Shown: positions 7,350 to 39,827 of the stretch, in pieces
How the letters are laid out: every line of letters begins with the position of its first letter
How positions within the stretch are numbered: the stretch's first letter is position 1
Assembly: GCA_015709675.1 (NCBI GenBank)
Contig: CP054182.1
Location: 1,715,448 to 1,779,447, forward strand
Direction: 5' to 3'
Source of the DNA: Ignavibacteriales bacterium
GTDB taxonomy: Bacteria > Bacteroidota > Ignavibacteria > Ignavibacteriales > Ignavibacteriaceae
Length of the DNA stretch: 64,000 nt
The notes under the pieces: model-generated
Seen by the model: the letters and a program-made list of their open reading frames with translations, nothing else
What the model was told of the DNA's origin: nothing
Databases searched by the model: none
Made by a program: the position numbers and the translations under genes

Positions 7350-7350
7350 A

Positions 7351-21100: not shown

Positions 21101-21136
21101 AAACGGATCTCTGAATAAGGGATCCGTTTTTTTATT
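21101..21136 (+). terminator. Rho-independent terminator
   Basis: AAACGGATC (21101-21109) pairs with GATCCGTTT (21121-21129), followed by a T-run. A second small palindrome (TTCAGAG A CTCTGAA) lies just upstream at about 21069-21083. Confidence 0.88.
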
Positions 21137-21211: not shown

Positions 21212-24067
21212 ATGAAAGTTTCGTTTTCAAAGATCTTTTCAATCTTCCTGTTCTTAACCTTCTCCGTTGTTTACGCACAGTCAGGTGTGGGTAAACTGGT
21301 CGGAAAAGTTATTGACGCAGGAACCAAGGAACCCCTGATCGGGGCCAACGTTCTGATCGTCGGAAGTGCACAGGGTGCTGCTACCGATGTTGAAGGACGT
21401 TACTTTATTCTTAACGTAACCCCCGGTACCTATGAAGTTAAGGTGAGTTACGTTGGTTATGGTCCAAAGACCATTCAGGATGTCCGTATTGTTGCGAACA
21501 TCACTTACGAACTCAATGTTGAGCTGAGCACTGATTTTACTCTGCCCACCATTGAAGTCAGCTCAAAGAAGTTCTTTGAGGAAAAATCAACCAATACAAC
21601 CAAAGTTCTCGATGCTGATCAGATCAGCAAACTTCCCGTAAAGGGCGTTGAGAAACTGGCTGGTCTCCAGTCCGGTGTTGTTATTCAGGAAGGTTCAGGC
21701 GGCGCTGACGGTAATGCTACCATTAACGTACGCGGCGGCCGCGGCGGCGAAGTTTTGTACATCGTTGACGGTGTGCCTCAGAATGACATTCTTTTCGGCG
21801 GAAACTCTGCACAGGTTTCCAACAACGCAATTGACCAGCTCTCTTTCCAGATCGGTGGTTACGAGGCAAAATATGGTCAGGCACAGTCAGGTATCGTGAA
21901 CGTTACTACCAAATCAGGAAGCGCTAAATATTCCTTCTTTGGTGATGTTCTTTCTTCATCGTTCACTGATGATTACGGATACAATCTGTATTCCGCAAAT
22001 ATCGGCGGTCCGATTATTCCGGGTAATGCAAACCACACAATCTTTCTTTCAGGTGAAAGAGGATGGTTTGGCGATGCTAATCCGAGAGCTATTCCTCTTG
22101 AGATTCCGACGATGAATATCAACACGAATGTGCTCCCGAATAACTCCTCAAGCGTCTGGAGATTCAGCGGAAGAACGCTGCATAACTTCCAGCCGTTCTC
22201 ACTGCGTCTTGGTGCAAATATTAACACCAGAACCAGCAGAGGATATACCCATACCTATGCAAAAAACAATGCTGAGCATAATCCTCTGACCGAGAATGAA
22301 AACTATTCATTCAGCGGACGCTTCAGCCATAACGTAAGCAACTCCATGTTTTACAATGTAAACATCGGATACAAAATTCAGAATCAGGAATCAGGCGACG
22401 GTGTATGGTTCGATAATATCGAAGCTTATGGCGATACCACTGCCAACAAACCATGGGTAAGACCTGGTGTACGTCTTATTCAGGGTACCCGTGTAAGTCT
22501 TGATCCGGTTCAGTTATTCTTTGATAAAGGACGTGTTTCTAACTCCTATACCAAACTGAACAATGACAATCTTACCTTAGATGTTGATTTCACCAATCAG
22601 GTGAGCAACCACCTCCTCGAAATCGGAGGCGGTGTTCAGCTTCACACCCTCAGATACTGGGCAATTGCTCCTGTTGGTGTTGCTATTGACAATACTACCA
22701 AAACCCTTAAGGAAAGAATTGCTCTTCAGAGACCTTTCTATTTTGGTTATGATATTCTTGGTAATGTTTCGGATGCGGATGAAACCACCATTTACGGAAC
22801 TGATTCATATACTACCAGCTCAGCTCCGAGAAATCCGATGATTGCGTATTTCTATATGCAGGACAGATTTGAATTAAGCGACCTCGTGCTGAATCTTGGT
22901 GTCCGCTGGGATTACTTTGATTCACAGGCAGATGTTGTAAAAGACGAACTGCTTCCTTATGCAGGCGGATCAAATCCTGATGCATTTGATGACGGTGACT
23001 TTAAAATTAAGGATGCTGAAAGCTATATCTCACCAAGAATTGGTATCGGTTTCCCTGTAACTGCCAGCACGGTTTTCCATGCACAGTTCGGTAAGTTCAT
23101 CCAGCAGCCAAGACTGATTGACGTATTCACCTCTGTGAACTCACTCGACGGTCTGGTTACCGATGGTAACTTCGGCGTTAATACCGGTAATGTTCAGAGT
23201 GAAATTACCACCCAGTATGAAATTGGTTTCAGACAGGTGCTTGGAAATAATGACGGCGCACTTAACCTGACCGCTTTCTACAAGAATACCAAGGGTCTCG
23301 TTAATGACGAAACCAGATTCTTCTACCGCTCTATTGGCGGACAGAGAGACCGTTATTACGGCCCTGCAAATTCTGACTTCGGTACCATTAAGGGTCTTGC
23401 ACTCTCACTGACCGTAAGCAGAATGGATTATTTCTCCTTCAACGTTGAATATACCTATTCACTGGCTGAAGGAACCGGATCATCAACCGGTTCATCAACC
23501 ACTGCTGCATTCAGAAATAACAACGGTGAAACCCCGAAGGTTATTGCACCGCTCGATTTCGATCAGAGACATACCGGTGTTGTGAATGTTGATTTCTCCG
23601 TACCAAAAGGAGAACTTGGATTCTTTGAAAGAACTTCTGCAAACTTCCTGGTTTCCTTCAACAGCGGACGTCCTTATACCCCGCTTGAGAAGCAGAATAT
23701 TACTCCGGGCGGCGGATCAAACCTTGGTGATACCAAAGGTTATGTTAACTCCGCTTATGGTCCTGGCAGCTTCAGAGTTGACTTCAAACTTGAAAAATCG
23801 TTTGAATTCGGCGGAGCAGTTCTTACTCCGTATCTCTGGATTGAAAACCTGTTTGATGCAGACAACGTAGTAAATGTCTATCGTTCAACCGGAAGTCCTA
23901 CCACGACCGGCTATCTGACCACTGCTGAAGGTAAAGCTGTTGCTGCTTCAAGAGGTCAGGAATATGTTGACGATTACATTGCGCTTGAAAGAGACCCCAA
24001 TAATTTTGGTATTCCAAGACTTATTAAGCTTGGATTCAGAGTTAATTTTGCAAATATTAACTTCTAA
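21212..24067 (+). CDS. TonB-dependent receptor with carboxypeptidase-regulatory-like domain
   Basis: 951 residues. Signal peptide to about residue 23 (VVYAQ). Residues ~28-115 are a CarboxypepD_reg-like domain (GKLVGKVIDAGTKEPLIGAN, DVEGRYFILNVTPGTYEVKV). A plug domain follows (ATINVRGGRGGEVLYIVDG, SGIVNVTTKSG), then a ~22-strand barrel ending in FGIPRLIKLGFRVNF. The SusC-like layout fits uptake or export of large substrates across the outer membrane; no SusD-like gene is adjacent. Codon bias is strong. The 1169-residue exported protein begins 20 bp downstream, so the two are probably cotranscribed. Confidence 0.9.
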   Translation: MKVSFSKIFSIFLFLTFSVVYAQSGVGKLVGKVIDAGTKEPLIGANVLIVGSAQGAATDVEGRYFILNVTPGTYEVKVSYVGYGPKTIQDVRIVANITYELNVELSTDFTLPTIEVSSKKFFEEKSTNTTKVLDADQISKLPVKGVEKLAGLQSGVVIQEGSGGADGNATINVRGGRGGEVLYIVDGVPQNDILFGGNSAQVSNNAIDQLSFQIGGYEAKYGQAQSGIVNVTTKSGSAKYSFFGDVLSSSFTDDYGYNLYSANIGGPIIPGNANHTIFLSGERGWFGDANPRAIPLEIPTMNINTNVLPNNSSSVWRFSGRTLHNFQPFSLRLGANINTRTSRGYTHTYAKNNAEHNPLTENENYSFSGRFSHNVSNSMFYNVNIGYKIQNQESGDGVWFDNIEAYGDTTANKPWVRPGVRLIQGTRVSLDPVQLFFDKGRVSNSYTKLNNDNLTLDVDFTNQVSNHLLEIGGGVQLHTLRYWAIAPVGVAIDNTTKTLKERIALQRPFYFGYDILGNVSDADETTIYGTDSYTTSSAPRNPMIAYFYMQDRFELSDLVLNLGVRWDYFDSQADVVKDELLPYAGGSNPDAFDDGDFKIKDAESYISPRIGIGFPVTASTVFHAQFGKFIQQPRLIDVFTSVNSLDGLVTDGNFGVNTGNVQSEITTQYEIGFRQVLGNNDGALNLTAFYKNTKGLVNDETRFFYRSIGGQRDRYYGPANSDFGTIKGLALSLTVSRMDYFSFNVEYTYSLAEGTGSSTGSSTTAAFRNNNGETPKVIAPLDFDQRHTGVVNVDFSVPKGELGFFERTSANFLVSFNSGRPYTPLEKQNITPGGGSNLGDTKGYVNSAYGPGSFRVDFKLEKSFEFGGAVLTPYLWIENLFDADNVVNVYRSTGSPTTTGYLTTAEGKAVAASRGQEYVDDYIALERDPNNFGIPRLIKLGFRVNFANINF

Positions 24068-24087
24068 GAAAAAGGAAGCGTTAAACA

Positions 24088-27000
24088 ATGATAAAGATTA
24101 ATCAATTCAGATCAACGGCGGCAAGAGTACTCCTCTTGCTGGCCGTTATCTTTGCAGTCGGTGCCTATAGCGGTGACGGCGTAAAAAGAACCGGCAACTC
24201 GCTCTATAAGAGTTCTGCCGAGTTCTTTGTATTTAATATCAACAACCTCAACATACCCGTTGATAACAAAGGCGTTATCGCTGACGTAGATCCGGGTACC
24301 GGTGCAGGCGGTTTCTATGATGGTAAAGTATTCCTCTTCTCAGGCGGATTCTTTATGTCAGGAATAACCAACGGTACCATGTGGGCAAACGGTGTTCTTT
24401 CAGCTTCAAGAATTGAAGATTACCAGCCGGGTCCGGTTGGTTCTTCAAGAACTGATCCAAAGAACAAGATGTATGTTGTTACCGCGCAGGACGAAGTATT
24501 TGGTCCGGCATGGCAGGAATGGAAAACCGCAGTTTCCATCGGCGCTGACTTCTATGACGGCGATGGTGACGGTGCCTATAATCCGGTTGACCTGAACGGC
24601 AACGGTAAATGGGACAGCAACGAAGACCGTCCTGACCTTATCGGTGATGTAACTGCATGGACCGTATATAATGACGGTGTTGCAAAATCCCTTAGAAGAT
24701 TTACCGACGTTGAACCCCAGGGTATTGAAATCAGACAGACTGTGTTTGCTTTCGCTTCCAAGGGTGTTGTTGGTAACATGCTCTTCATCCGTTACAGAAT
24801 CGTTAACCGCGGTACTGTAGCAGACAAAATTGACTCTGTTTATTTCTCCGTGGCTGCTGACCCTGATCTCGGTGATTATACCGATGACCTGGTAGGCTGC
24901 GATACCACCCTTTCAGCCGGTTATGTATATAACGGCGGTCCTGACGGACAGTTCGGTGCTAACTGCCCGACCTTCCTTATGGACTTCTTCCAGGGTCCGG
25001 TTGTATATATCCCGGGCGAAACCTTTGTTGACGCGAATGGTAACGGTGAGTTTGACGCAGGTGAAACCCCTCTTACCGAAGCTCACAACGTCCGCGGCGT
25101 GGTAATGGGCATTGACACCATTCCTGGTGCAAAGAATATGCCTCTTACTTCATTTACACAGTATATGCAGAGCCACCCGACCCACGGTGACCCGAACACC
25201 CGTTTCGAGCTCCGTAATTATCTTCTGGGCGGTGTGTCAAAAGACGGTGTACCTCTTGATCCATGTACCTGGGCATTCGGTAACGGTCCGGCAAATGCAG
25301 GTGTCTGCGCTACCTGGGATCCTCATTTCATGTATTCAGGCAAGCCAGAAGATGGTACCGGCTGGTTAAACACCACCCCGATTGACCAGAGACAGATGTC
25401 AAATACCGGCCCGTTTGTTCTGAAAAAAGATCAGCCGATTGACATCGTTGCAGCCTATGTTGTTGGCCGCCATCCTTCACTTTCTGTTCAGTCTGTCAGA
25501 ACCGCAAAGGAATATGATCAGATTGCTCAGTTAGTATTTGATTCTAACTTCCCTTCACCTCCGGCTCCTCCGCCAGCAGTGTATGATGTTAAAACCGGAA
25601 ACGGCTTTATTGATCTTACCTGGCAGACCGCTCCTCAGGTGAATTACAGAGCTATTGATACCGTTCTTGATATTGACCGCAGACTGCAGGGTTACTATGT
25701 AACCGCTTTCCGCACCAATAGCAAAGCGGATATGATTGGCGGTACGGTTAACTCAACCCGTTTAGTAACATATGAGATGGATAATATTATCCATGGCATT
25801 CAGCAGAAAAAATCAAACGGCGCTATTGAGACCTATCTCGAAAGACCATCTGCAGAATATCTGCTTGATTCAGCACTCTATTCAAAACCTGATGAAGGCC
25901 GTATTCGTTTACGTGTTACTCAGGATCCTTTTACCGGAGTTCCTCTCGTGAAAGGTAAAGAGTATTATTTTGCTCTCACTACCTTTACTCTTAACCACAA
26001 AGTGATTAAGAATAAAGCAACCGGTACCTACGGTCCGGCTGGTGACTATATTGACGAAACCAATGGTGCAGTTGATGAATACGAAACTGCAATTATAAGA
26101 GTTGTCTACGGCACTGATTTGTTTGCTCCGGCTTCGGATATCGGACAGAGCAAAAAGGCAGCAGGTTTTGCCGGAACAGGCGGAGTTAAATTCCTCCCTG
26201 TTAATAACAGCGAACTGACCGGTGACACTTATACGGTTTCATTCAAGGCTGATACCACCACAATTCCATATTCAGCCTCCTATTCGCTTACTAATAACAG
26301 AACAGGTACTGTTCTGATCTCTGATTCAAAGGCATATAACTTTGACTCAACCAACTATGCTGGTAAACTTACTGAAGGATTCGTTCTGAAAGTAAAAGAT
26401 GTAGCTCCAACGGTTGCTCCTGATACCCGGCAGACTTACACCCCGGCAGCAAACAAGTGGTTTGTTGACCTCAACCTGTTAACTGCAAGTCTCGGTGCTG
26501 TATATAGCGGAAGAGATATCGCAGGAGTAGGCGGAAGTGCAACTCTTGGTAACAGACAATCCACCATCACCAAGGCAAACCGCCTGCGTGCAATTGAAGT
26601 GCGCTTCGGTCAGCCTGGTAAAGCATACCGCTACATGAACGGATTTGTTGGTACTTCAGCTCTTTCAAGAAGAAACAGCTTCAAGTATGCAGCAGGCCTT
26701 AACGGCACAGACGTACTCCCAAGCCGCGGCGGCGCAATGGGCCAGTTCGGTGTGGGCTTTGTAGATGTACCGTTCCAGGTATGGGTAAAGGATTCAGTTT
26801 ATGGTGAGGAAAGACAGCTTGCAGTAGGCTTTGTTGAGAAATCAGCAAACCTGCCAGGCGGAAATCCTGACGGTAACTGGTTCCCTGGTACCGATGTAAC
26901 CCAGTCACTGGAAGCGATCATCGTTTTTGATGCAAACTATGATGCATCAGGCAGCCAGATCGAATATACCGGCGGTGTATTCGGAAGCGACAGTGCATGG

Positions 27001-27597
27001 GCAGATATCCGCGGATATCAGTTCCCTGCAAGTGCAACCACAGTAACTGATGAACAGAAGCGTATTGCAGCCTCACCGCTGTTTAACGCGATGTATGTAA
27101 TCAGTCTGAGTGCACTGACAGCGACCAGTACGTTTACTGCAGGAGACGTATTCAGAGTACCGGTAGGCACCTATCCGTACACTGATGCAGACAGCTATAC
27201 ATTCTCAACCAAACAGGGCGGAGCACTCACTGATGCTGAACAGAAAGATCTGTTCAACAAGGTTAATGTATATCCGAACCCGCTGTTTGCGTTCAACCCT
27301 GAAACCAGTTATAATTCACAGGCTTATTCAGATGATCCGTTTGTGACCTTCACAAACCTTCCTGAAGAAGTTACAGTGAAAATCTTCACGGTATCAGGCG
27401 CTCTGGTAAGAACCCTTACGCAGGCAGACAAACTTGACGGTGTTGGTTCACCGTTCCTGCGCTGGGATCTTGAGAACGAAAATGGTCTGAGAGTTGCATC
27501 AGGAATGTACCTTGCTATCGTATCTTCACCCGGATTCGGAGAAAAGATACTGAAGTTTGGTGTTATTTTACCACAGAAGCAATTACAGAGATATTAA
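24088..27597 (+). CDS. Giant exported protein, paralogue family member 1, with divergent sorting domain
   Basis: 1169 residues; not a family I can name. N-terminal signal-like segment (VLLLLAVIFAVGAYSGDG). Residues ~155-182 hold Ca-binding-type acidic loops (DGDGDGAYNPVDLNGNGKWD) and another lies near 315 (DANGNGEFDAGE). An FN3-like region begins near 495 (GNGFIDLTWQTAP). Residues ~1059-1169 resemble a T9SS type A domain but the signature is VYPNPLFAFNP instead of NYPNPFNP, ending ASGMYLAIVSSPGFGEKILKFGV. It is cotranscribed with the receptor and precedes a PorV-like gene. DNA 26386-27292 is nearly identical to 31204-32110 in the next paralogue. Confidence 0.8.
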   Translation: MIKINQFRSTAARVLLLLAVIFAVGAYSGDGVKRTGNSLYKSSAEFFVFNINNLNIPVDNKGVIADVDPGTGAGGFYDGKVFLFSGGFFMSGITNGTMWANGVLSASRIEDYQPGPVGSSRTDPKNKMYVVTAQDEVFGPAWQEWKTAVSIGADFYDGDGDGAYNPVDLNGNGKWDSNEDRPDLIGDVTAWTVYNDGVAKSLRRFTDVEPQGIEIRQTVFAFASKGVVGNMLFIRYRIVNRGTVADKIDSVYFSVAADPDLGDYTDDLVGCDTTLSAGYVYNGGPDGQFGANCPTFLMDFFQGPVVYIPGETFVDANGNGEFDAGETPLTEAHNVRGVVMGIDTIPGAKNMPLTSFTQYMQSHPTHGDPNTRFELRNYLLGGVSKDGVPLDPCTWAFGNGPANAGVCATWDPHFMYSGKPEDGTGWLNTTPIDQRQMSNTGPFVLKKDQPIDIVAAYVVGRHPSLSVQSVRTAKEYDQIAQLVFDSNFPSPPAPPPAVYDVKTGNGFIDLTWQTAPQVNYRAIDTVLDIDRRLQGYYVTAFRTNSKADMIGGTVNSTRLVTYEMDNIIHGIQQKKSNGAIETYLERPSAEYLLDSALYSKPDEGRIRLRVTQDPFTGVPLVKGKEYYFALTTFTLNHKVIKNKATGTYGPAGDYIDETNGAVDEYETAIIRVVYGTDLFAPASDIGQSKKAAGFAGTGGVKFLPVNNSELTGDTYTVSFKADTTTIPYSASYSLTNNRTGTVLISDSKAYNFDSTNYAGKLTEGFVLKVKDVAPTVAPDTRQTYTPAANKWFVDLNLLTASLGAVYSGRDIAGVGGSATLGNRQSTITKANRLRAIEVRFGQPGKAYRYMNGFVGTSALSRRNSFKYAAGLNGTDVLPSRGGAMGQFGVGFVDVPFQVWVKDSVYGEERQLAVGFVEKSANLPGGNPDGNWFPGTDVTQSLEAIIVFDANYDASGSQIEYTGGVFGSDSAWADIRGYQFPASATTVTDEQKRIAASPLFNAMYVISLSALTATSTFTAGDVFRVPVGTYPYTDADSYTFSTKQGGALTDAEQKDLFNKVNVYPNPLFAFNPETSYNSQAYSDDPFVTFTNLPEEVTVKIFTVSGALVRTLTQADKLDGVGSPFLRWDLENENGLRVASGMYLAIVSSPGFGEKILKFGVILPQKQLQRY
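26386..27292 (+). repeat. 907-bp tract near-identical to 31204-32110 (copy 1)
   Basis: Aligned by hand at a constant offset of 4818 bases. Beyond a short divergent patch near its left end, I count about 12 mismatches in ~855 bp, of which 11 are synonymous; the flanks diverge at once. It encodes residues ~767-1068 of the protein. Confidence 0.9.
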
Positions 27598-27604
27598 AAA
27601 AACG

Positions 27605-27623
27605 GGCGGGTTAACCACCCGCC
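27605..27623 (+). terminator. Hairpin between giant protein 1 and the PorV-like gene
   Basis: GGCGGGT (27605-27611) pairs with ACCCGCC (27617-27623). The following bases are only partly T-rich, so partial termination or mRNA end protection is likely. Confidence 0.5.
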
Positions 27624-27652
27624 TCTTATTAACCTAATAGGAGTTTGATAAA

Positions 27653-28663
27653 ATGAAAAAAGTTCTCATAATCTTTCTTATGGCATCCTTGGCCTGGGCC
27701 GGTGATGTTTCCAGAAAAGGAACTACCGGTGCTGATCAGCTCCTGATACCGGTTGGAGCGAGAAGTATTGCTACTGGCGGTGCATTCTTGTCCAATACGA
27801 CAGGCGTTGAAGCTATTTATTTCAATCCGGCAGGTCTTGACCTTGCCAACAGCTCTGAGGCAATGTTCTCCTATATGTCTTATCTCGCTGATATGAATAT
27901 CACCTACTTTGCAGCAGGTGCTAATTTTGGCGAGCTCGGAAGTATAGGAATTTCCTATAAAGGTCTCGATTTTGGTGACATTCCTGTTACCACAATTGAT
28001 GCACCGGACGGAAACGGAGCTACCTATTCCCCGGCTTTCTTTACCGTAGGTCTTACCTATGCAAAGAAAGTTACAGACCGCGTTGCAATTGGTGTGAATG
28101 CAAAAATGATCCACGAAGGAATCATGAACACCTCAGCCAATGGTTTCGCAGTTGATTTCGGTGTTCAGTACCGCTTCCCTCAGAATCTTTCTATGGGCGT
28201 TACGGTAAAGAATATCGGAAGCAACATGAAGTATGACGGACAGGATCTTCAGGTAAAAACGGTGATTCCGGGATCAAACCCGAATTCAGCGTTCGGTTCT
28301 TATGCTCCTGTTACCGAAGAATTCCAGCTCCCGAGCTACTTCGAAATGAGCTTAGCGTATGATTACAGATTCAACGAAGCCAACAACATTCTGTTCGGAT
28401 CATCATTCAGAAACAACAATGCCGGTGAAGATAACATCGTCTTCGGTATGGAATATGATTTCAGCAAAATGTTCTTCGTTCGTGCTGGTTATGACATGCT
28501 TCTCCAGAACACAGACCAGTCAATCTATGGTCTGGCTATGGGCGCAGGCGTGAACTATAACTTCACAGACGGCATCACCATGAGTCTTGATTACGCTTAC
28601 CGGGATGTTCAGGATTTCCCGACCCCGAACCATATCTTCACTCTGAAGCTTGGTCTCCAGTAA
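27653..28663 (+). CDS. PorV/PorQ-family outer membrane protein
   Basis: 336 residues with a short signal peptide (ends near AWAG) and an AGGAG site upstream of the ATG. The opening GADQLLIPVGARSIATGGAF and GVEAIYFNPAGL motifs are typical of the PorV/PorQ (UPF0164-like) family, followed by a FadL-like 14-strand barrel ending FTLKLGL. In T9SS, PorV shuttles substrates to the attachment complex; homologues with other roles exist. It sits between two giant paralogues and shares their strong codon bias, which suggests it serves their export. A strong terminator follows. Confidence 0.85.
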   Translation: MKKVLIIFLMASLAWAGDVSRKGTTGADQLLIPVGARSIATGGAFLSNTTGVEAIYFNPAGLDLANSSEAMFSYMSYLADMNITYFAAGANFGELGSIGISYKGLDFGDIPVTTIDAPDGNGATYSPAFFTVGLTYAKKVTDRVAIGVNAKMIHEGIMNTSANGFAVDFGVQYRFPQNLSMGVTVKNIGSNMKYDGQDLQVKTVIPGSNPNSAFGSYAPVTEEFQLPSYFEMSLAYDYRFNEANNILFGSSFRNNNAGEDNIVFGMEYDFSKMFFVRAGYDMLLQNTDQSIYGLAMGAGVNYNFTDGITMSLDYAYRDVQDFPTPNHIFTLKLGLQ

Positions 28664-28683
28664 TCGTTCCTAATTGATTGATG

Positions 28684-28718
28684 AGGCGCCCGGTTTAATC
28701 ACCGGGCGCCTTTTTTTA
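28684..28718 (+). terminator. Rho-independent terminator
   Basis: AGGCGCCCGGT (28684-28694) and ACCGGGCGCCT (28701-28711) form an 11-bp stem with loop TTAATC, followed by a run of seven T. It ends the receptor-giant protein-PorV unit. Confidence 0.92.
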
Positions 28719-28908
28719 TGGACTGCACACGAACAAGCAGTCTTTCGGCCACGTCCTGATTCCCGCGCTAAGATTCAATGGTTTCATTTTGCTATCTCCT
28801 TTACTGACTTCCGAATATTTGTTTTTCAAACTGCTTCTTCCTATTTTTTAACATACCGACATAAGAATTTCTCCTTTTTATTCCAGTTTTCCAATTTCCG
28901 GAGGGAAT

Positions 28909-31900: not shown

Positions 31901-32412
31901 TTAACGCGATGTATGTAATAAGTCTGAGTGCACTGACAGCGACCAGTACATTTACTGCAGGAGACGTATTCAGAGTACCGGTAGGCACCTATCCGTACAC
32001 TGATGCAGACAGCTATACATTCTCAACCAAACAGGGCGGAGCACTCACTGATGCTGAACAGAAAGATCTGTTCAACAAGGTTAATGTATATCCGAACCCG
32101 CTGTTTGCGTATAATCCTGCTACGAGTTACGACCGTACACTCTCGCCGGATGATCCGTATGTTACATTCACCAATCTTCCGGCTGATGTAACCATCAGGA
32201 TATATACAGTATCAGGAGCGCTGATCCGCACACTCACTGAAGCTGACAAGACCGACGGACCATCTTCCCCCTTCCTCCGCTGGGATCTGAAGAATGAAAG
32301 CAGGCGCAGAGTTGCTTCTGGAATGTATATGGCAATAGTCTCATCCCCCGGCTTCGGAGAGAAAATACTGAAGTTGGGTATCGTACAGCCGATGAAACAA
32401 ATAACAAGGTAA
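28909..32412 (+). CDS. Giant exported protein, paralogue family member 2
   Basis: 1167 residues, colinear with the gene at 24088. ATG 28909 has a GGAGGG site. The signal segment (VTLFSLALLLTGAYYGDGG), acidic Ca-loop (DGNGDNRYDPVDLNGDGKW), FN3-like region (GDGFIDLTWNTAD) and divergent sorting-like C-terminus (VYPNPLFAYNP ... FGEKILKLGI) are all kept. The first ~765 residues and the last ~100 are diverged from member 1, but residues ~766-1067 are nearly identical at DNA level. Outside that tract the codon use is mixed (CGC, CGG, GGG common); inside it is the biased AGA-rich style of member 1, which suggests member 1 was the donor. Confidence 0.8.
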   Translation: MKKNIWLKPVLSRVTLFSLALLLTGAYYGDGGKRHNLQKATALNSYLIDINNLVLPVNNRGILADQNIGNISGGIYDSLVVLFSGGFFLSGESNGADWANGVMSASRIEDYREGPVGSNQNDPRNRLYILSSQDRAFSESWQNWKEAVALGADYYDGNGDNRYDPVDLNGDGKWNPDEDRPDLIGDLTVWCVYNDGVPKNLRRFNNINPQGIEIHQSVFGFASRGTIGNMLFVRYRLINRGTVAERIDSVYFSAVTDPDIGDYTDDLVGCDTLLSAGFAYNRTPDGQYGVNAPAFLNDFFQGPVVYIPGETFIDADGNGLFDLGETPLTEAYNVRGFYKGIDTIPGAKNLPLTSFTQYISSHPTIGDPSFYHELINYQKGGRYRDGTPIDPCRWFFSNGPSDSANCGTWDPKFMYSGDPLTYSGWLNTSPVDQRMMLNTGPFVLRANEPVDIVVGYVVGRSSLSSIESLREVKKNDIVAQYLFDLNFPTPPQPPDVAVDVRTGDGFIDLTWNTADFINFRAVDTILDIDRRVQGFYITGYRTNNRAQETGGIVNAKLLGSYGVKNQIHTIFQKQSNGAITTYFERPAEQFLLDTLIYGNPAEGRIRVRITEDPFTGIPLVKGKEYYFSVTSFTLNHRVIKNRATNTYGPEGDYIDDRNIAIDEFDNAIVRVVYGTDMYSPAADIGQGKRAAGFAGTGGVKFLTVDNSGLTGDSYTVEFKGDTATLPYSASYSLKNNRTGAYLITGSKSYNFDTTNYAGKVTEGFILKVKDVAPTVSTDAQQTYTPAANKWFVDLNLLTASLGAVYSGRDIAGVGGSATLGNRQSTITKANHLRAIEVRFGQPGKAYRYMNGFVGTSALSRRNSFKYAAGLNGTDVLPSRGGAMGQFGVGFVDVPFQVWVKDSVYGEERQLAVGFVEKSANLPGGNPDGNWFPGTDVTQSLEAIIVFDANYDASGSQIEYTGGVFGSDSAWADIRGYQFPASATTVTDEQKRIAASPLFNAMYVISLSALTATSTFTAGDVFRVPVGTYPYTDADSYTFSTKQGGALTDAEQKDLFNKVNVYPNPLFAYNPATSYDRTLSPDDPYVTFTNLPADVTIRIYTVSGALIRTLTEADKTDGPSSPFLRWDLKNESRRRVASGMYMAIVSSPGFGEKILKLGIVQPMKQITR
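31204..32110 (+). repeat. 907-bp tract near-identical to 26386-27292 (copy 2)
   Basis: Same orientation as copy 1, offset 4818. The one amino-acid change outside the short left-end patch is Arg to His in the KANRLRA motif. Codon style inside the tract is unlike the rest of its own gene. Confidence 0.9.
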
Positions 32413-32420
32413 TTATGATG

Positions 32421-32490
32421 TATGAATTATGAAGTATGAATTATGAAGTATGAATTATGAAGTATGAATTATGAAGTACGAAGTATGAAT
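32421..32490. repeat. 14-bp tandem repeat
   Basis: TATGAATTATGAAG occurs four times without change (32421, 32435, 32449, 32463), followed by TACGAAG and a partial unit. It lies in the 278-bp gene-free spacer before the next paralogue. Its reverse complement is found in the spacer at 4190-4210. Confidence 0.9.
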
Positions 32491-32690
32491 TAAAGGGGAT
32501 TGCTTCTGGTCATCAGTCTCTCATTCCTTGTGCTGCCGGCAGTTCTTGCTGTCGTTGTGGTCCTTGCTGTCCTTTGAGTTGTGCTGCGGTCAGGTCTTTT
32601 GACTTAATCTGTAAAAATGCTTATTTTAACCTAACACAAATTTCGGACTTCCCGGTTGGGGGTTGTCCTCACTTTTTTTCCGGAGGGAAA

Positions 32691-35600
32691 ATGAATGGTT
32701 TCCATGTTCATCGACCGGTATTTTTGCTCGTTCTGCTCTTTAGTTTTCTGCTGTTTTTAACCGGAGCTTTTTCCGGTGACGGCGGGGGAAAACGAAGTCC
32801 TCAGAAATCCTCTGCCCTTAACGGTTTTCTCATTAACATCAATAATATCCGTCTCCCATTAGACAATCAGGGAGTCCTTGGTGACTTTGACCCTGGTACC
32901 GGAGCCGGCGGGTTTTACGACGGTAAGATATTCCTCTTTTCCGGCGGACTCATCCTCACCGGATATACAAATAGTACACTTTGGGCTAATGGAGTTTTTA
33001 GCGCCTCACGTATGCAGGACTATCAGCCGGGACCGGTCGGCTCTGATCAGAATGATCCGCGCAATAAAGTCTATGTTGTCCGCAGTATGGATATTCCATT
33101 TGGTGACTCATGGCAGGAATGGAAAAACGCTGTGGCACTGGGAGCTGATTTTTATGACGGAGACGGGGATGGTATATATAATCCCTCTGATCTGAATTAT
33201 GACGGCAAATGGAACAGCAACGAAGACCGCCCCGACCTGATCGGCGACCTAACAGCATGGTGCGTGTATAATGACGGTGTACCGAGAGCATTACGGCGTC
33301 TGACATCAGTCAGCCCCCAGGGAATCGAGATTCATCAGACCGTCTTCGGATTTGCTTCGCGTGAGAATATCGGCAATATGCTTTTTGTCCGTTACCGCCT
33401 TATTAACAAGGGTACTGTGGCCGATCTGCTTGATTCTGTGTATTTTTCTGTCATTACCGACCCGGATCTTGGTGACTACATGGATGATCTGCTGGGCTGC
33501 GATACTACCCTGGATGCCGGATATGTTTATAACGCAACCGCTGATGCACTATATGGAGTAAATGCTCCGGTATTTCTTGCAAGCCTGCTTCAGGGGCCGG
33601 CTGTATATATTCCGGGAGTTACATTTACTGATTCCAATGGCAACGGAATATTTGACAGTGGAGAATCGCCCCTTACAGAAGCATACAATGTGAAAGGTTT
33701 GGTTAAGGGAATCGACACTCTTAGAGGTGCAAAAAATCTCCCGATGACCTCTTTTATGCAAATGATGCAGTTGTGGGGTGGTGATCCCGGAGGAATGTTC
33801 GTTTGGGATTACCGGAATTGGCAGAAGGGTTTGCACTATTCCGGAGCACCGTTTGATCCTTGTACATGGTCGTTTGGCACGGGTACGAACGATCCTGACT
33901 GCATTAACTGGAATCCGAAGTATCTTTATTCCGGTGATCCTGTAGCAGGAAACGGGTGGAGAAATAAAACGCCAATTGATCAGAGGAAAATGATTACGAC
34001 CGGTACTTTCCCTCTCCATAAAAATCAGCCAGTTGATATAGTTGCCGCATATATTGTGGGAAGATCGCCGGTGAGCAGTCTTCTGAGCGTGAATACAGCA
34101 AAGGAACTTGCAAAGGCAGCCAGGAGTGTGTTTAATAAAAATTTTGAAGGTCCTGCAAAACCTGATGAGCTTTCTGTTGATGTCCGCACAGGTAACGGCT
34201 TCATTGACCTGACCTGGAATACTTCCCCTTTAGTTACTTACCGCTCCTTAGATACGATACTTGGCATTGACCGGCGCGTGCAAGGATTTTATGTAACGGC
34301 CTACAGGACCAATTCTGAAGCGGCACTGATTCCCGGCGTGGTAAATGCAAAAATTATTTCCTCCTATGCCGTGAATAACTTTATTCATGATATATATCAG
34401 ACGCAGCAAAATGGCGGGCTGGATATGCGGTTCAAAAGACCTGAAGCCGAATATCTTCTTGACAGTGCACTTCACGCAGATCCCGCTCAGGGGCGCATCC
34501 GACTGAGAATATCCGCGGATCCTTTCGACGGAATTCCCCTCATTAAAGGAAAGGAATACTTTTTTGCTCTTACTACCTATACGCTTAATCACAAGAGTAT
34601 AGTAAACAAACAGACAACTACCTATGGCCCTCCCGGCGATTATCTTGATGCAACCGGCGCGGCAATTGACGAATACAGCACATCAATTATCCGCGTAGTT
34701 TATGACACTGATCTTTATGAACCTGCCCCGGATATCGGCAAAGGAAACAAAACTTCCGGCTTTGCAACTCAGGGAAATGTTGCTTATCTGGTGGTTAATG
34801 ATGAAGAACTGACCGGCGACAGTTACACGGTTGAGTTTAAAAGTGATACAAGCCTGTATCATTACTCGGCTTCTTATTCACTAAAGAACAACAGAACCGG
34901 CCAGTACCTGATTACTGATTCAAAGTTCTATAACTATGATACAAACAACTATGCTGGAAAAATAATCGAAGGGTTTGTTCTTAAAGTTAAGCCGGTGGTG
35001 CCTGCCCCATCAAACGAAACACAGCAAAAATATATACCTGCATTAAATACATGGTTCACCGACCTGAACGTGACCAACGCGAGCCTGGGCGCAGTCTATG
35101 CCGGGGATGATATCCACTGGTGGGGGAGTGCAATTTTCGGAAGCAGGCAATCAACCATTACAAAAGCAAACCGTTTGCGGGCGGTAGAAGTGCGCTTCGG
35201 GCTGCCAGGCAAGGCATACCGGTATATGAACGGATTTGTTGGAAATAATGCCCTCGCAAGAAGAAATGTTTACCGGTATGCTGCTGGAATACAGCCCATC
35301 GACACCTTATCCTCACGAGGCGGATCAATGGGTAAGTATGGCATTGGTTATGTTGATGTGCCGTTTCAGGTATGGGTTAAGGATTCAGTCTATGGTGAAG
35401 AGCGTCAGCTGGCGGTTGGATTCGTTGAAAAGACGGCAAAATTTTTTGGCGGAAATCCGGATGGCAATTGGTACCCGGGTGTTGATGTTTTATTGTCTTT
35501 AGAAGCAATCATTGTCTTTGATGCTGATTATGACCCGTCAGGCAGCCAGATAGTATATACCGGCGGAGTGTTCGGAACGGATAGTGCATGGGCAGATCTC

Positions 35601-36179
35601 ATGGGATATCAATTCCCTCCGGGTGCTACAACAGTAACCGATGAGCAGAAGCGCATTGCTGCCTCACCGCTGTTTAATGCGATGTATGTTATAGGACTGA
35701 GTGCACTTACTCCGACGAGTACCTTTACTCCCGGAGATATCTTCAGAGTGCCGGTCGCGGTGTATCCTTATACCGATGATGATGTATATACCTTTTCCAC
35801 AAGAAAAGGAGGAGACCTGACCTTTGAAGAGAAGAAGGAACTGTTTGAAAAGGTTAATGTATTCCCGAATCCGTTTTTCGCCAATAATACCAGATTCAGC
35901 TATGAGAATCCTAAAACGGCGGAGGAGTCGTTTGTAACGTTTACCAATCTTCCTGAAACAGTTACCATAAAGATATACACTGTTTCAGGGGCTTTGATAA
36001 AAACTCTTACGGAGAGTGATAAAATGGATGGCGCTTCATCACCCTTCCTGCGTTGGGATCTTAAGAACCAGAGCGGCAACCGTGTTGCTTCAGGCATGTA
36101 TCTGGCGATCGTGACAGCACCCGGCTACGGAGAAAAACTGCTGAAATTGGGAATTATTCAGCAGGCAGGTTCAAAGTGA
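32691..36179 (+). CDS. Giant exported protein, paralogue family member 3
   Basis: 1162 residues from ATG 32691, chosen for its strong site (CCGGAGGG) and because the signal-like helix (VFLLVLLFSFLLFLTGAFSGDGG) follows; an in-frame extension to 32574 would add 39 unlikely residues. It has the same order as members 1 and 2: acidic loop (DGDGDGIYNPSDLNYDGKW), second loop (DSNGNGIFDSGE), FN3-like part (GNGFIDLTWNTSP), and a divergent sorting-like end (VFPNPFFANNT ... YGEKLLKLGIIQQ). It is closer to member 4 at the C-terminus than to members 1 and 2. Function unknown; surface location inferred. Confidence 0.8.
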   Translation: MNGFHVHRPVFLLVLLFSFLLFLTGAFSGDGGGKRSPQKSSALNGFLININNIRLPLDNQGVLGDFDPGTGAGGFYDGKIFLFSGGLILTGYTNSTLWANGVFSASRMQDYQPGPVGSDQNDPRNKVYVVRSMDIPFGDSWQEWKNAVALGADFYDGDGDGIYNPSDLNYDGKWNSNEDRPDLIGDLTAWCVYNDGVPRALRRLTSVSPQGIEIHQTVFGFASRENIGNMLFVRYRLINKGTVADLLDSVYFSVITDPDLGDYMDDLLGCDTTLDAGYVYNATADALYGVNAPVFLASLLQGPAVYIPGVTFTDSNGNGIFDSGESPLTEAYNVKGLVKGIDTLRGAKNLPMTSFMQMMQLWGGDPGGMFVWDYRNWQKGLHYSGAPFDPCTWSFGTGTNDPDCINWNPKYLYSGDPVAGNGWRNKTPIDQRKMITTGTFPLHKNQPVDIVAAYIVGRSPVSSLLSVNTAKELAKAARSVFNKNFEGPAKPDELSVDVRTGNGFIDLTWNTSPLVTYRSLDTILGIDRRVQGFYVTAYRTNSEAALIPGVVNAKIISSYAVNNFIHDIYQTQQNGGLDMRFKRPEAEYLLDSALHADPAQGRIRLRISADPFDGIPLIKGKEYFFALTTYTLNHKSIVNKQTTTYGPPGDYLDATGAAIDEYSTSIIRVVYDTDLYEPAPDIGKGNKTSGFATQGNVAYLVVNDEELTGDSYTVEFKSDTSLYHYSASYSLKNNRTGQYLITDSKFYNYDTNNYAGKIIEGFVLKVKPVVPAPSNETQQKYIPALNTWFTDLNVTNASLGAVYAGDDIHWWGSAIFGSRQSTITKANRLRAVEVRFGLPGKAYRYMNGFVGNNALARRNVYRYAAGIQPIDTLSSRGGSMGKYGIGYVDVPFQVWVKDSVYGEERQLAVGFVEKTAKFFGGNPDGNWYPGVDVLLSLEAIIVFDADYDPSGSQIVYTGGVFGTDSAWADLMGYQFPPGATTVTDEQKRIAASPLFNAMYVIGLSALTPTSTFTPGDIFRVPVAVYPYTDDDVYTFSTRKGGDLTFEEKKELFEKVNVFPNPFFANNTRFSYENPKTAEESFVTFTNLPETVTIKIYTVSGALIKTLTESDKMDGASSPFLRWDLKNQSGNRVASGMYLAIVTAPGYGEKLLKLGIIQQAGSK
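35637..35820 (+). repeat. ~180-bp tract near-identical to 39291-39474
   Basis: Offset 3654 to member 4. Only a handful of mismatches within a ~180-bp stretch, while sequence before and after differs clearly. Confidence 0.75.
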
Positions 36180-36341
36180 TGATATTCCCGGGATCCGGAG
36201 CATGATCTCCTTAAAGGTGCCTGGACATCGTGGTTGTTGTCCTCGCCATTCTTGAACAAAAGGCTTAAATAAATTTTGTAAAATATCCGATTCAGAACCG
36301 TCCGTAGCAGGTATGCTCTGAATAAATTCCCTGGAGGAAGA

Positions 36342-39300
36342 ATGAAAAAAATATCATATCACAGGCAGGCAGTTATCAGATTACTGCTGCTCTGCAGTCT
36401 GCTCATTTTAACCGGAAGTTATCAGGTAGACAGCGGTAAGAATGGAATTCTCAGGGTAACTTCAGAAGCGTTGAGTTATGTAATAAAAATAAACAACATA
36501 ACACTTCCGCTGGATAATAACGGGGGGATTGGCGATGTGAGGTCGTTCAGCGGAGCGTACTATGACGGTAAAAGATTTCTTTTCTCAGGCGGATTTTATC
36601 TTTCAGGTCTATCAGATGGAGAGATGTGGGGCAATGGTTATTTCACAGCCGCACGTGTTCAGGATTATCTTCCCGGACCTGTTGGTTCAGACCCTAAGGA
36701 TCCTAAGAACAGATTATATGTTATCACAAGCTTGGATCTCCCATTTGGTGATGCCTGGCAGCTCTGGAGGGATGCAGTATCGCTTGGCGCTGATTTTTAC
36801 GATGGCAACGGTGACGGGAAATATGAGCCGGTTGATCTGAACGGCAACGGCAGGTGGGACACGGATGAAGACAGGCCCGATATTATCGGTGATATAACCG
36901 CCTGGTGCGTAACTAATGACGCAGTAATACCAGGGCTTCGCAGGTTTACTGATGTTTCCCCCCGTGGTATTGAAATTCAGCAGACCGTTTTTGGTTTCGC
37001 TGCCCGGAATGAACTGGATGATATTTTATATATACGCTACCGGATTATCAATAAAGGTACCTTTGCTCCCCGTTTTGATTCTGTCTATTTCAGTCTTGGG
37101 CTTGAGCCGGAAGTCGGAACGTATTACAATGATCTGACCGGATCAGATACGCTGCTTTCGGGGGCATACGCCTATGACAACGGCCCTGATCCTGATTATG
37201 GAAATAATTCTCCGACATTCTTTGCGGGATTTGTTCAGGGTCCGCCGGCATATATTCCAGGGGAAACATTTATTGACGCAAATAATAACGGAGTTTATGA
37301 TATTGGTGAGAACTCACTTTCCTCGGCAGTGAACTTTAAGGGGGGAATTATGAAAACAGATACATTGCCCGGAGCCAAAAATTTATTAATGACATCATTT
37401 ACTACAACTAATAATTACCATAACTATGGCATGATGCCCAATACCCGGCATGAACTGAGATATTATCAGACCGGAGGTTTGCGGAAGGATGGCAATCAGG
37501 TTATTCCATGCACATGGTGGGAGGGCAATGGCAGCCAAAAACCGGATGAATGCGGTTTGTGGAATCCAAAGTTCTTACACTCGGGTGATCCGGTAGCAGG
37601 CACAGGATGGATAAACACCTATCAGATTGATCAGACAATGATGGTTACAACAGGCACGTTTACTCTTCATAAAGACCAGCCGGTGGATATAGTTGCAGCG
37701 TATGTGGTAGGAAGATCTCCTGTAAGCAGTCTCCTGAGCGTGAACGCAGCAAAAAAGATTGCGGGATTTGCGAAGAACCTGTGGGAAAATCAGCGTTCAG
37801 ATAATACCAGGCCTGATGATATTACTGTGGACGTCCGTACCGGAGACGGATTTATTGATCTTACCTGGAATACTGCCGGTCTGGTTAATTATCAGGGAAT
37901 TGATTCGGTCTTTGACAAAAACAAAAAACTTCATGCATTTTTTGTTACCGGTCTTCGTACTAACAATGTTGCAGCATCAATCAGCGGTGCAGCAAATGCA
38001 AAGGAACTGGCACGGTATGCTGTTAAAAACAACATTCATGCATTACTGCAAAAGCAGTCACATGGCGGTTTTATAACATATTTCGAACGCCCCTCAGAAG
38101 AATTTCTGCTTGATACTCTTATATATAGTAAACCGGATGAGGGGAGAATTCGGCTGCGCATAACCGAGGACCCGTTTACCTCATCACCCCTTATTAAAGG
38201 GAAGGAGTACTATTTTACTATTACTTCCATTCTGCTTGATCATAACCGGATATATAATCAGGCGACAGGAACTTACGGTCCGGCGGGGGATTATATTGAC
38301 ACGATGCGAAATGCGGTTTCAGAGTATCAATCGTCCATCATCAGGGTGGTTTACGGCTCTGATTTGTATGAACCTGCTGCCCTCACCGGTCAAAGCAGCC
38401 GTTCATCAGGATTCGCCGGAACCGGAGGAGTAAAATTCCTCACGGTTAATAGCAACGAACTTACTGGTGACACTTATACGGTTGAATTCAAAAGCGATAC
38501 CACTACCGCTCCTTACTCAGCTTCTTACTCACTCAGGAATAACAGAACCGGTGAGTATCTGATCAGCGACTCTAAATCCTATAACTTTGATACAACAGAC
38601 TATTCAGGAAAACTAACCGAGGGTTTTCTTCTGAAAGTAAAAAATGTTACGCCGTTGGTTGCAAATGTAACTCAGCAGACATATACCCCAGCGGAGAATA
38701 AATGGTTTAAAAATCTTGATCTGACCCATAATAATCATGGCGCCGAATATTGCGGAAAGGATATCACAGGAATAGACGGCAGCGGAATGTTTGGTAACAA
38801 GCAATCAACCATCATGAAAGCAAACCTCCTCCGGGCGATTGAAGTCCGGTTTGGTCAGCCGGGTAAGGCATACCGTTATATGAATGGATTTGTGGGCACT
38901 TCTGCAAACTCAAGAAGAAATACATACCGGTATGCGGCAGGAATCCGCCCGATAGATACCCTTTCCTCCCGCGGCGGTGCTATGGGTAAGTATGGAATTG
39001 GTTATGTTGATGTGCCATTTCAGGTATGGGTAAAGGATTCCGTTTATGGTGAGGAAAGACAGCTTGCAGCCGGCTTTGTTGAAAAATCAACAACCTGGTT
39101 TGGCGGTAATCCCGATGGCAGCTGGTTTCCGGGAACAGATGTAACCTCATCATTGGAAGCAATCATTGTCTTTGATGCTGATTATGACCCTGCAGGCAGT
39201 CAGATTGAATATACCGGAGGAGTGTTCGGAACGGACAGTGCATGGGCAGACCTCCGGGGATATCAATTCCCTCCAGGTGCTGCAACAGTCACCGATGAGC

Positions 39301-39827
39301 AGAAGCGCATTGCTGCCTCACCGCTGTTTAATGCGATGTATGTTATAGGACTGAGTGCACTTACTCCAACGAGTACCTTTACTCCCGGAGATATCTTCAG
39401 AGTGCCGGTCGCGGTGTATCCCTATACCGATGATGATGTATATACCTTTTCAACAAGAAAAGGAGGAGACCTGACTCTTGAGGAAAAGAAGGAATTATTC
39501 GAAAAAGTGAATGTATTCCCGAATCCGTTTTTTGCCAATAATACCAGATTCAGCCATGAGAATCCCAGAACGGCGGAAGAATCGTTTGTAACATTTACCA
39601 ATCTTCCTGAAACAGTTACCATAAAGATATATACTCTTTCCGGCTCTCTGATAAGAACTCTGACAGAAGGTGATAAACAGGATGGCGCTTCATCCCCCTT
39701 CCTGCGCTGGGATCTGAAGAACCAGAGCGGCAGCCGTATTGCTTCAGGCATGTATCTGGCAATCGTGACAGCCCCTGGCTATGGAGAAAAACTGCTGAAA
39801 TTGGGGATCATCCAGCAGAAAAAATGA
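36342..39827 (+). CDS. Giant exported protein, paralogue family member 4
   Basis: 1161 residues; ATG 36342 has a GGAGGAAG site. Signal segment LLLLCSLLILTGSYQVDSG; the GDG motif after the signal in other members is replaced by VDSG. Acidic loop DGNGDGKYEPVDLNGNGRW, second loop DANNNGVYDIGE, FN3-like GDGFIDLTWNTAG, and a divergent sorting-like C-terminus (VFPNPFFANNT ... YGEKLLKLGI). It is the last member of the tandem family. Its central region differs most from the others, while the C-terminal ~180 residues are close to member 3. Confidence 0.8.
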   Translation: MKKISYHRQAVIRLLLLCSLLILTGSYQVDSGKNGILRVTSEALSYVIKINNITLPLDNNGGIGDVRSFSGAYYDGKRFLFSGGFYLSGLSDGEMWGNGYFTAARVQDYLPGPVGSDPKDPKNRLYVITSLDLPFGDAWQLWRDAVSLGADFYDGNGDGKYEPVDLNGNGRWDTDEDRPDIIGDITAWCVTNDAVIPGLRRFTDVSPRGIEIQQTVFGFAARNELDDILYIRYRIINKGTFAPRFDSVYFSLGLEPEVGTYYNDLTGSDTLLSGAYAYDNGPDPDYGNNSPTFFAGFVQGPPAYIPGETFIDANNNGVYDIGENSLSSAVNFKGGIMKTDTLPGAKNLLMTSFTTTNNYHNYGMMPNTRHELRYYQTGGLRKDGNQVIPCTWWEGNGSQKPDECGLWNPKFLHSGDPVAGTGWINTYQIDQTMMVTTGTFTLHKDQPVDIVAAYVVGRSPVSSLLSVNAAKKIAGFAKNLWENQRSDNTRPDDITVDVRTGDGFIDLTWNTAGLVNYQGIDSVFDKNKKLHAFFVTGLRTNNVAASISGAANAKELARYAVKNNIHALLQKQSHGGFITYFERPSEEFLLDTLIYSKPDEGRIRLRITEDPFTSSPLIKGKEYYFTITSILLDHNRIYNQATGTYGPAGDYIDTMRNAVSEYQSSIIRVVYGSDLYEPAALTGQSSRSSGFAGTGGVKFLTVNSNELTGDTYTVEFKSDTTTAPYSASYSLRNNRTGEYLISDSKSYNFDTTDYSGKLTEGFLLKVKNVTPLVANVTQQTYTPAENKWFKNLDLTHNNHGAEYCGKDITGIDGSGMFGNKQSTIMKANLLRAIEVRFGQPGKAYRYMNGFVGTSANSRRNTYRYAAGIRPIDTLSSRGGAMGKYGIGYVDVPFQVWVKDSVYGEERQLAAGFVEKSTTWFGGNPDGSWFPGTDVTSSLEAIIVFDADYDPAGSQIEYTGGVFGTDSAWADLRGYQFPPGAATVTDEQKRIAASPLFNAMYVIGLSALTPTSTFTPGDIFRVPVAVYPYTDDDVYTFSTRKGGDLTLEEKKELFEKVNVFPNPFFANNTRFSHENPRTAEESFVTFTNLPETVTIKIYTLSGSLIRTLTEGDKQDGASSPFLRWDLKNQSGSRIASGMYLAIVTAPGYGEKLLKLGIIQQKK
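39291..39474 (+). repeat. ~180-bp tract near-identical to 35637-35820
   Basis: Partner of the tract in member 3, same orientation. It codes for the segment around IAASPLFNAMYVIGLSAL and the following PGDIFRVPVAVYPYT. Confidence 0.75.

Follow-up and report, generated by a model that had tools for sequence, protein, structure and literature searches.

In SusC-SusD uptake, a TonB-dependent receptor stands beside a surface-exposed lipoprotein partner. In the type IX secretion system (T9SS), PorV proper is a shuttle, PorU is held by PorV and PorZ by PorQ (PMC5562754), and PorZ is exposed at the cell surface with its C-terminal domain (CTD) intact, as is PorU (PMC5121618). Type A CTDs are all recognized by PorV according to PMC12618676, with PorP/SprF-like shuttles serving type B, and it has been hypothesized that cognate PorV-like barrels may shield CTDs from cleavage, for PorZ/PorQ and for type B substrates (PMC10202324). 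Non-cleaved CTDs are described as longer than the others (96-108 versus 67-88 residues), with an extra hairpin in common (PMC11285876). Here, we have analyzed a window of 64,000 nucleotides (the whole stretch of DNA under study, CP054182.1, positions 1,715,448 to 1,779,447) from an Ignavibacteriales bacterium whose genome is a single 4.21-Mb contig. All the open reading frames (ORFs) that a preliminary description had placed at positions 21212-39827 of this window are present there: genes for a TonB-dependent receptor (T), four giant exported proteins (V) and an outer-membrane barrel of the PorV family (P). The order receptor, giant, barrel recurs as a cassette in several classes of the phylum, and the giants end, to judge from sequence profiles, in a distinct class of T9SS CTD whose nearest solved relatives are those of PorZ and PorU.

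The receptor-giant-barrel cassette and its recurrence

In the window, where the locus (19264-39988) lies on the forward strand, the receptor gene (21212-24067, 951 aa) is immediately followed by giant 1 (24088-27597, 1169 aa, exported), and this by the barrel gene (27653-28663, 336 aa). The preliminary name "PorV-like" suits the barrel at the level of the family: P scores 171.4 bits against a cut-off of 90 with the PorV_fam model NF033709, which places it in the PorV/PorQ family, and its only relative in the PDB (phmmer, up to E 0.1) is PorV (6h3i, E 3e-8). It is neither PorV nor PorQ proper, falling below the cut-offs of the equivalog models for PorV (72.6 versus 250 bits), PorQ (103.6 versus 220) and PorVQ2 (73.8 versus 325). 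Elsewhere in the same genome, PorU (971 bits) is encoded beside a core PorV (L062; 246 bits, just under the cut-off of 250; L and G numbers are our labels for regions and genomes), PorQ proper is found in L065 (249 bits versus 220), and SprA is above its cut-off, as it is in all 11 of the 11 genomes searched. A core T9SS is therefore in place, to which the barrel of the window is an addition.

To see how often the arrangement recurs, six complete Ignavibacteriales genomes were searched for PorV_fam genes, which gave 69 above the cut-off (one of them in the window), each retrieved with about 9-16 kb of upstream sequence. ORFs were classed by local profiles, and a receptor, a CTD protein and a PorV-class ORF that were adjacent in this order on one strand were counted as a strict triad. 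Strict triads account for 35 of the 77 PorV-class ORFs, with gaps of -28 to 76 bp, and they occur in every one of the six genomes (G000, 8; G002, 4; G019, 7; G026, 8; G054, 4; G056, 4), while L092 and L106 are near-triads with one gene between the CTD protein and P. The six genomes contain 145 plug matches in all, so that, assuming about 3,000 genes per genome, we estimate the chance of finding a receptor at a given place to be of the order of 1%. In addition, 19 strict triads were found in 56 further regions, 53 of which are labelled only as belonging to the same phylum and three to the same class: 7 of 12 in G061, 4 of 9 in G116, 2 of 6 in G159, 1 of 14 in G086, 2 of 2 in G073 and 1 of 1 each in G064, G093 and G132, with none in G122 (0 of 3), G063 (0 of 3), G109 (0 of 2), G071 (0 of 1) and G107 (0 of 1). 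This count was made by eye and is not a rate, seven of the regions (from G064, G073, G093, G071, G107 and G132) having been hand-picked, and barrels overlooked by the ORF picker (e.g., in L128, L130, L151 and L152) were kept as misses. Thus the locus, which had been described as a lineage-specific surface module and for which recurrence of its gene order had been proposed as the check, does recur; the surface module stands, and the lineage-specific part does not, with four to eight cassettes per genome in the six and further ones in other classes.

The receptor of the window carries a CarboxypepD_reg N-terminal extension and a plug, both above their Pfam cut-offs (Plug, 41.4 bits versus 23.9), and a TonB-box-like motif, LPTIEVSS; plug and motif identify it as a TonB-dependent receptor, its barrel part being without a Pfam match. 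The earlier label "SusC-like" has to be withdrawn: with the SusC/RagA model TIGR04056 the protein scores 71.8 bits against a cut-off of 368.25, and only over residues 29-238, the N-terminal extension and plug. A TonB-box-like motif precedes the plug in 34 of the 35 triad receptors in an alignment inspected by eye (the receptor of L071 is split), a view that supersedes a regular-expression search in which only 14 of the 35 were found. These motifs favour working TonB-coupled transporters.

Several variants of the arrangement were also seen. In a conserved form from five genomes (L063, L072, L088, L101 and L115), two CTD proteins of about 700 aa, a gene of about 520 aa and a receptor precede the PorV-family gene, which adjoins the receptor, and one of the CTDs scores between the two classes described below (62-67 bits). 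Once per complete genome (L066, L077, L086, L098, L112 and L122), two consecutive PorV-family genes follow a CTD protein of about 520-540 aa. A 2380-aa protein directly before a PorV-family gene (L069:2998-11200) has 16 CarboxypepD_reg stretches and a CTD; considered as a receptor-CTD fusion, it proved to consist of serial CarboxypepD_reg domains and a CTD and was excluded from the triad count.

A distinct class of C-terminal domains

The "divergent sorting-like C-terminus" of the preliminary description was borne out and is its most informative part. The CTD of giant 1 (27205-27594) and those of the other triad proteins share the consensus VVPNPY...FxNLPxxxTIxIFTxxGxLVxTI...WDLxxxxGxxVAxGxYxxxVxxPxxGxKxxKFAIIK (35 rows), whereas ordinary tails of the same genomes read FxLxQNYPNPFNPSTxIxF...VYDxLGxEVAxLV...FxASxLxSGxYxYxL...TKKMxLxK. 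The type A model PF18962 matches (E<=1e-3) 1 of 35 triad tails versus 64 of 69 non-triad tails, the type B model PF13585 (CHU_C) 2 of 35 versus 32 of 69, and FlgD_ig 5 of 35 versus 32 of 69. The 69 tails compared, which include two from the window, were taken from 86 found, four V-type tails (from the arrays in L026 and L121) and the 13 lowest-scoring being omitted; as the set was collected with a profile begun from triad tails and then widened, CTDs unlike both classes may be missing from it.

Assignments of the giants to cargo types A and B were considered and rejected. As type A cargo (Por_Secre_tail), they fail in PF18962, and the four giants of the window reach only 13.6-20.2 bits with TIGR04183 (cut-off 23); as type B cargo, they fail in PF13585, and no PorP model is among the matches of the window barrel up to E 1. 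No ChiA-type model (cl41395, following PMC10202324) was so named among the NCBIfam matches of the four giants up to E 1, the membership of this model in the library being unconfirmed.

A profile of the triad tails found 46 CTDs at 101-188 bits in the six genomes (35 of them its own seeds), the next match scoring 66.6 bits and the others below. We refer to these 46 as V-type, and compared them, within the best 150 of 178 matches, with the other 104 less five second gene pieces, i.e., 99. A PorV-family match lies within 15 kb of 46 of the 46 V-type CTDs versus 24 of the 99 lower-scoring ones listed, and directly downstream (<=300 bp) of 36 of the 46 versus 10 of the 99. The ten V-type genes that are not directly followed by P are giants 2-4 of the window, three of the array in L026, two in L121, and those of L092 and L106. 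CTD proteins from other classes of the phylum, which had no part in building the profiles, could likewise be assigned clearly, by score, to one of the two types of CTD. A protein of about 1400 aa present in four genomes (G000:C1:2732660, G026:C1:2691458, G002:C1:3341185 and G019:C1:573743) has a CTD that scores between the classes, at 51-65 bits with the triad profile.

Among solved structures, the triad profile matched PorZ (E 1.8e-6), PorU (9e-4) and then only two FlgD entries up to E 10, a range within which no translocon-bound substrate CTD was matched. The control profile of ordinary tails behaved differently: the CTD chain of 8glj came first (4.5e-4), 8glk (NucA) fourth (0.034) and PorU ninth and last (0.24), and PorZ was not matched. 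A structural model of the giant 1 CTD, with a mean predicted local distance difference test score (pLDDT) of 77, is likewise closest to PorZ (Foldseek, 4e-5; Z 8.4 with 2.9 A over 90 residues), with PorU (7.0), RemZ (6.7), NucA (6.5), RemA (6.3) and RgpB (6.0) behind it, so that the predicted model and the sequence match to PorZ both point to the seven-stranded Ig-like sandwich of T9SS CTDs. The triad tails are also the longer ones, measured from PNP to the end (median 98 aa, range 65-107, versus 78 aa, range 78-112), and a segment in front of the GxY strand, with a W that is invariant in the 35 rows, aligns to the extra segment of PorZ and PorU. It is probable, on this analysis, that the V-type CTD is a barrel-retained class.

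The giants and their tandem array

Three further giants follow the barrel gene of the window: giant 2 (28909-32412, 1167 aa), giant 3 (32691-36179, 1162 aa from an ATG, the mechanical ORF start being a TTG at 32574) and giant 4 (36342-39827, 1161 aa). They are 73%, 65% and 62% identical to giant 1, respectively, and are therefore paralogues. A hydrophobic N-terminus followed by GDG is indeed found in three of the four, giant 4 reading VDSGKN, and the acidic D/N-G loops reported for these proteins exist; the FN3-like region has no significant profile support, Pfam fn3 giving no match in the window giants up to E 1 and fibronectin, at E 0.11, being the sole PDB relative of the giant body up to E 1 (profile of 22 cargo proteins). 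None of the four matched a family above its cut-off in Pfam or NCBIfam, and in six of seven giants from other cassettes no Pfam domain was found up to E 0.01, the seventh having FlgD_ig below the cut-off. In profile comparisons, the bodies of the giants from eight cassette families (A-H) proved related over at least 240 residues with 88.7-100% probability, except for the window family A with C (63%) and with H (76%). Two further families have shorter giants: J has 100-200 residues in common with most others (97-98% with D and E but 40% with A), while I was mostly unrecognized.

The N-terminal part of the giants, about 450 residues, recurs with 46-53% identity at four places of G000:C1 (216360, 928273, 931568 and 1300801; L005-L008), in open frames of 598-1003 aa whose tails, by eye, resemble ordinary type A CTDs; the front domain of the giants is therefore a module that is also used elsewhere.

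By giant protein, the closest named relatives are two metagenome-assembled Ignavibacteriaceae, L021 (81% identity) and L022 (61%). The gene order receptor, giant, PorV family is conserved in both, and their flanking genes are alike by length and first residues. Additional giants 3' of the PorV-family gene number three in the window, one in L021 and none in the stretch of L022 examined. Full-length relatives of giant 1 (>1,000 query residues, >=45% identity) are present in 21 of 58 relatives. The locus is thus old and the array young.

DNA comparison suggests how the array has been reshaped. Giants 1 and 2 are 45-78% identical outside alignment codons of about 750-1050, 87% at codons 751-800 and 96-100% over codons 801-1050, with an identical run of 245 nt (26857-27101 in giant 1, 31675-31919 in giant 2), whereas the identity of giant 1 with its sister copy in L021 amounts to 73-94% up to codon 700 and beyond 1050 and only 59-75% in the interval. 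In giants 3 and 4, codons 951-1050 are 91-98% identical and include an uninterrupted match of 77 nt (35637-35713 and 39291-39367). On these patterns, both tracts are products of gene conversion in a segment just 5' of the CTD; giants 1 and 2 have kept different CTDs, and the extra giants are a local expansion with gene conversion; it is only the four-fold array that is local. The earlier suggestion that extra copies supply variants fits with such tracts.

A second array was observed in L026:6238-20000 (G000:C1:2536238-2550000), where about four giants with near-identical tails are followed by one PorV-family gene; there is no adjacent receptor on that strand, and one copy appears divided between ORFs of 761 and 284 aa that overlap.

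Co-variation of receptor, giant and barrel

Distances within genomes are correlated for all three pairs of cassette members, at 0.65 for CTD tails and whole P, 0.67 for CTD tails and whole T, and 0.76 for whole T and whole P, and for each pair a correlation as high was reached in 0 of 5000 within-genome permutations. Thus, cassettes seem to have been duplicated and to have diverged as units. Across 148 sampled genomes of the phylum, V-type CTDs (E 1e-18) were detected in 79, all of which are among the 117 with PorV_fam genes (E 1e-15), and add up to at least 375 matches. Per-genome counts, taken over at most the best 13 PorV_fam and the best 26 V-type matches, are closely related among the matches listed (Spearman 0.945, 117 genomes). 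Among the 42 genomes with 1-3 PorV_fam genes, the number of V-type CTDs is one in seven and zero in the rest, whereas at least two are found in 42 of the 42 genomes with 10-13 listed PorV_fam genes. The single weak V-type matches in PorV-poor genomes may be PorZ itself. Together with the 36 of 46 V-type genes directly followed by P and the PorZ/PorU-like CTD, the distance correlations support the role in export or anchoring of the giant that had been proposed for the PorV-like protein.

Proposed mechanism and alternatives

We lean towards a mechanism in which the T9SS exports each giant across the outer membrane and a PorV-like barrel of its own retains it there, next to a TonB-energised receptor. 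A signal peptide would take V into the periplasm, from where SprA, the T9SS translocon, would carry it across the outer membrane; the barrel P, encoded right behind V, would then take over its CTD. Export by SprA and capture by the cognate barrel would follow from what is established about the T9SS, given the kind of CTD and the family of the barrel. Since the CTD is of the PorZ/PorU kind, it would most likely remain uncleaved, and the giant would be kept at the surface as a V-P pair in the manner of PorU-PorV and PorZ-PorQ, retention following from the CTD class. The receptor would most likely work with the giant, which may capture a ligand outside and hand it over, in a SusD-like role beside SusC, and cassettes would have been duplicated and have diverged as units, presumably for different ligands. 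The three extra giants of the window would share this P or use another barrel, their segment 5' of the CTD being exchanged by gene conversion.

Some observations weigh against this mechanism. More than half of the PorV-class ORFs (42 of 77) lie outside strict triads, being core PorV/PorQ, placed after a CTD protein without a receptor or after a receptor without a giant, or alone, and giants 2-4 and the array in L026 break the rule of one giant to one barrel. The 35 seeds of the V-type profile score high by construction, the other 11 CTDs being new, and the permutation and rank tests ignore phylogenetic kinship. In the structural comparison, unrelated chains reach Z scores of 6.9 (8jmw) and 6.6 (3sd2), equal to or higher than those of most genuine CTDs, so that only PorZ stands clear, and the CTD lengths of the two classes overlap. 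The beta-hairpin shared by PorU and PorZ is reported to be functionally not relevant in P. gingivalis (PMC11285876); it is therefore a marker of the class, unproven as a mechanism. As to the giants themselves, no ligand-binding or catalytic domain was recognized in them, and the whole-giant AlphaFold2 model, made from seven sequences, had a mean pLDDT of 33 and was left out of fold searches.

A first alternative gives the receptor a part in delivering the giant, which it would energize or gate through a TonB-coupled step of export, assembly or anchoring, instead of a part in uptake. Its model is Oar of Myxococcus, which is required for secretion of PopC (PMC6434023) and whose N-terminal architecture, CarboxypepD_reg and plug, is shared by T; the position of T directly upstream of V and its divergence with V and P in strict triads would suit such a role, as would the receptor-barrel pairs without a giant between them (L063, L072, L088, L101 and L115). 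However, this architecture dominates among the TonB-dependent transporters (TBDTs) of Bacteroidetes (PMC6434023) and is hence unspecific, and the T9SS has motors of its own that depend on the proton motive force (PMC10202324). The title of the structure entry for the extended translocon names SprA, PorV, PPI, RemZ, SkpA and SprE and no TonB-dependent receptor, and the term "tonb" is absent from PMC10994853. We regard TonB-coupled delivery as rather unlikely; that the receptor serves in uptake, with the giant as its surface partner, is at least as likely as that it serves export.

The receptor might instead be merely co-regulated with the two other genes. P belongs to the family of PorV, which in its proper form is a shuttle (PMC5562754), the CTD of the giants has the common T9SS fold, and PorU is present. 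Nevertheless, it is the second, ordinary CTD class of the same genomes that passes PF18962, whereas the triad class fails it, the triad CTDs resemble the uncleaved ones of PorZ and PorU, and for shuttling a core PorV is already available beside PorU (L062). This alternative as a whole has, in our judgment, a low probability. A third explanation, that receptor, giant and barrel are separate surface functions joined in one operon for transcriptional convenience and form no complex, has in its favour that surface genes cluster generally (a type A CTD gene lies within 500 bp, directly up- or downstream, of 22 of the 35 triads) and that giants 2-4 and the L026 array have no adjacent receptor of their own, but it is improbable in view of the constant order with its narrow gaps, the correlated divergence of the three genes within genomes and the identical order in other classes of the phylum.

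Beyond the individual giant retained on its barrel beside the receptor, a wider and more tentative generalization is possible, though we would not call it probable: the cassettes of many, yet not all, lineages of the phylum may encode a distinct outer-membrane machine, consisting of a TonB-energised transporter and a giant T9SS-delivered lid or capture arm that is held permanently on its own PorV-family barrel by a further, barrel-retained class of CTD. Several such machines would operate in parallel per genome, some lineages diversifying the giant by tandem duplication and gene conversion.

While the parts are of known kinds, the dedicated PorV-family partners, the probable barrel-retained CTD class and the constant linkage to a receptor appear to be undescribed. 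The PorV family would have radiated into private partners, with up to eight strict triads per genome, and these are tied to a CTD class that Pfam models of types A and B nearly always miss; the V-type CTD thereby provides a handle on giant proteins that are unannotated. The hypothesis that a cognate PorV-like barrel protects a CTD from cleavage (PMC10202324) becomes testable in this way, and there is reason to seek a physical link between TonB-dependent transport and the T9SS.

Transcriptional layout and flanking genes

Upstream of the receptor gene, by 149 bp, ends a gene for an exported 599-aa protein with a type A CTD (19264-21063, PF18962), and a terminator-like hairpin lies in between (21101-21129). 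This site and another immediately 3' of the PorV-family gene (28683-28712) bracket receptor, giant 1 and barrel, and a third is found 3' of giant 4 (39961-39988). All three are pattern matches only, and as the region has 25 hairpin-plus-T sites versus 17.0 (sd 4.3) in shuffled sequences, single sites are weak evidence; the second and third suggest separate transcription of the cassette and giants 2-4. A scan for consensus promoters was uninformative (31 sites versus 30.6 expected). The gap separating giants 2 and 3 contains, at 32411-32489, 5.6 tandem copies of a 14-bp unit (AATTATGAAGTATG). Further upstream, an alpha-amylase-like protein (74-2191) and an FG-GAP protein (4285-6042) have ordinary type A CTDs and contributed their tails to the 69 controls, and an Omp85/POTRA protein of 681 aa is encoded at 7321-9366, about 12 kb 5' of the cassette.

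Comparison with known systems

In the open-licence papers listed by our searches, as far as their accessible text extends, neither a receptor-giant-PorV cassette nor a family of dedicated PorV paralogues is described, and the earlier statement that no system of this composition is known stands uncontradicted there. Oar/PopC of Myxococcus xanthus is alike in having a CarboxypepD_reg-plug TBDT and is a precedent for such a transporter in protein export, but M. xanthus is without a T9SS, and no giant-barrel pair is described for it in the available parts of the source (PMC6434023). Like SusC-SusD, the cassette has a TonB-dependent receptor adjoining a large partner that would be surface-exposed; unlike SusC, the receptor fails the SusC/RagA model (71.8 versus 368 bits), and the place of the SusD lipoprotein is taken by a protein predicted to use the T9SS and accompanied by a barrel. 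The type B adhesins (SprB-SprF, Fjoh_3952-Fjoh_3951 and PG1035-PorP) likewise have a barrel devoted to them, in many cases the product of the next gene downstream, for secretion and/or anchoring (PMC12618676, PMC9143113). Here, however, the barrels are of the PorV/PorQ and not the PorP/SprF family, PF13585 is recognized in only two of the 35 tails, and the third partner is a receptor instead of a PorE-like gene. PorU-PorV and PorZ-PorQ of P. gingivalis, whose surface members have the CTDs nearest to the V type, also pair a T9SS-exported protein, its CTD intact, with a PorV/PorQ-family barrel that holds it (PMC5562754, PMC5121618, PMC10202324). The giants resemble PorZ and PorU in the CTD only, as far as our searches showed, and the present systems differ in having many paralogous barrels, each behind a giant, with a TonB-dependent receptor as part of the unit.

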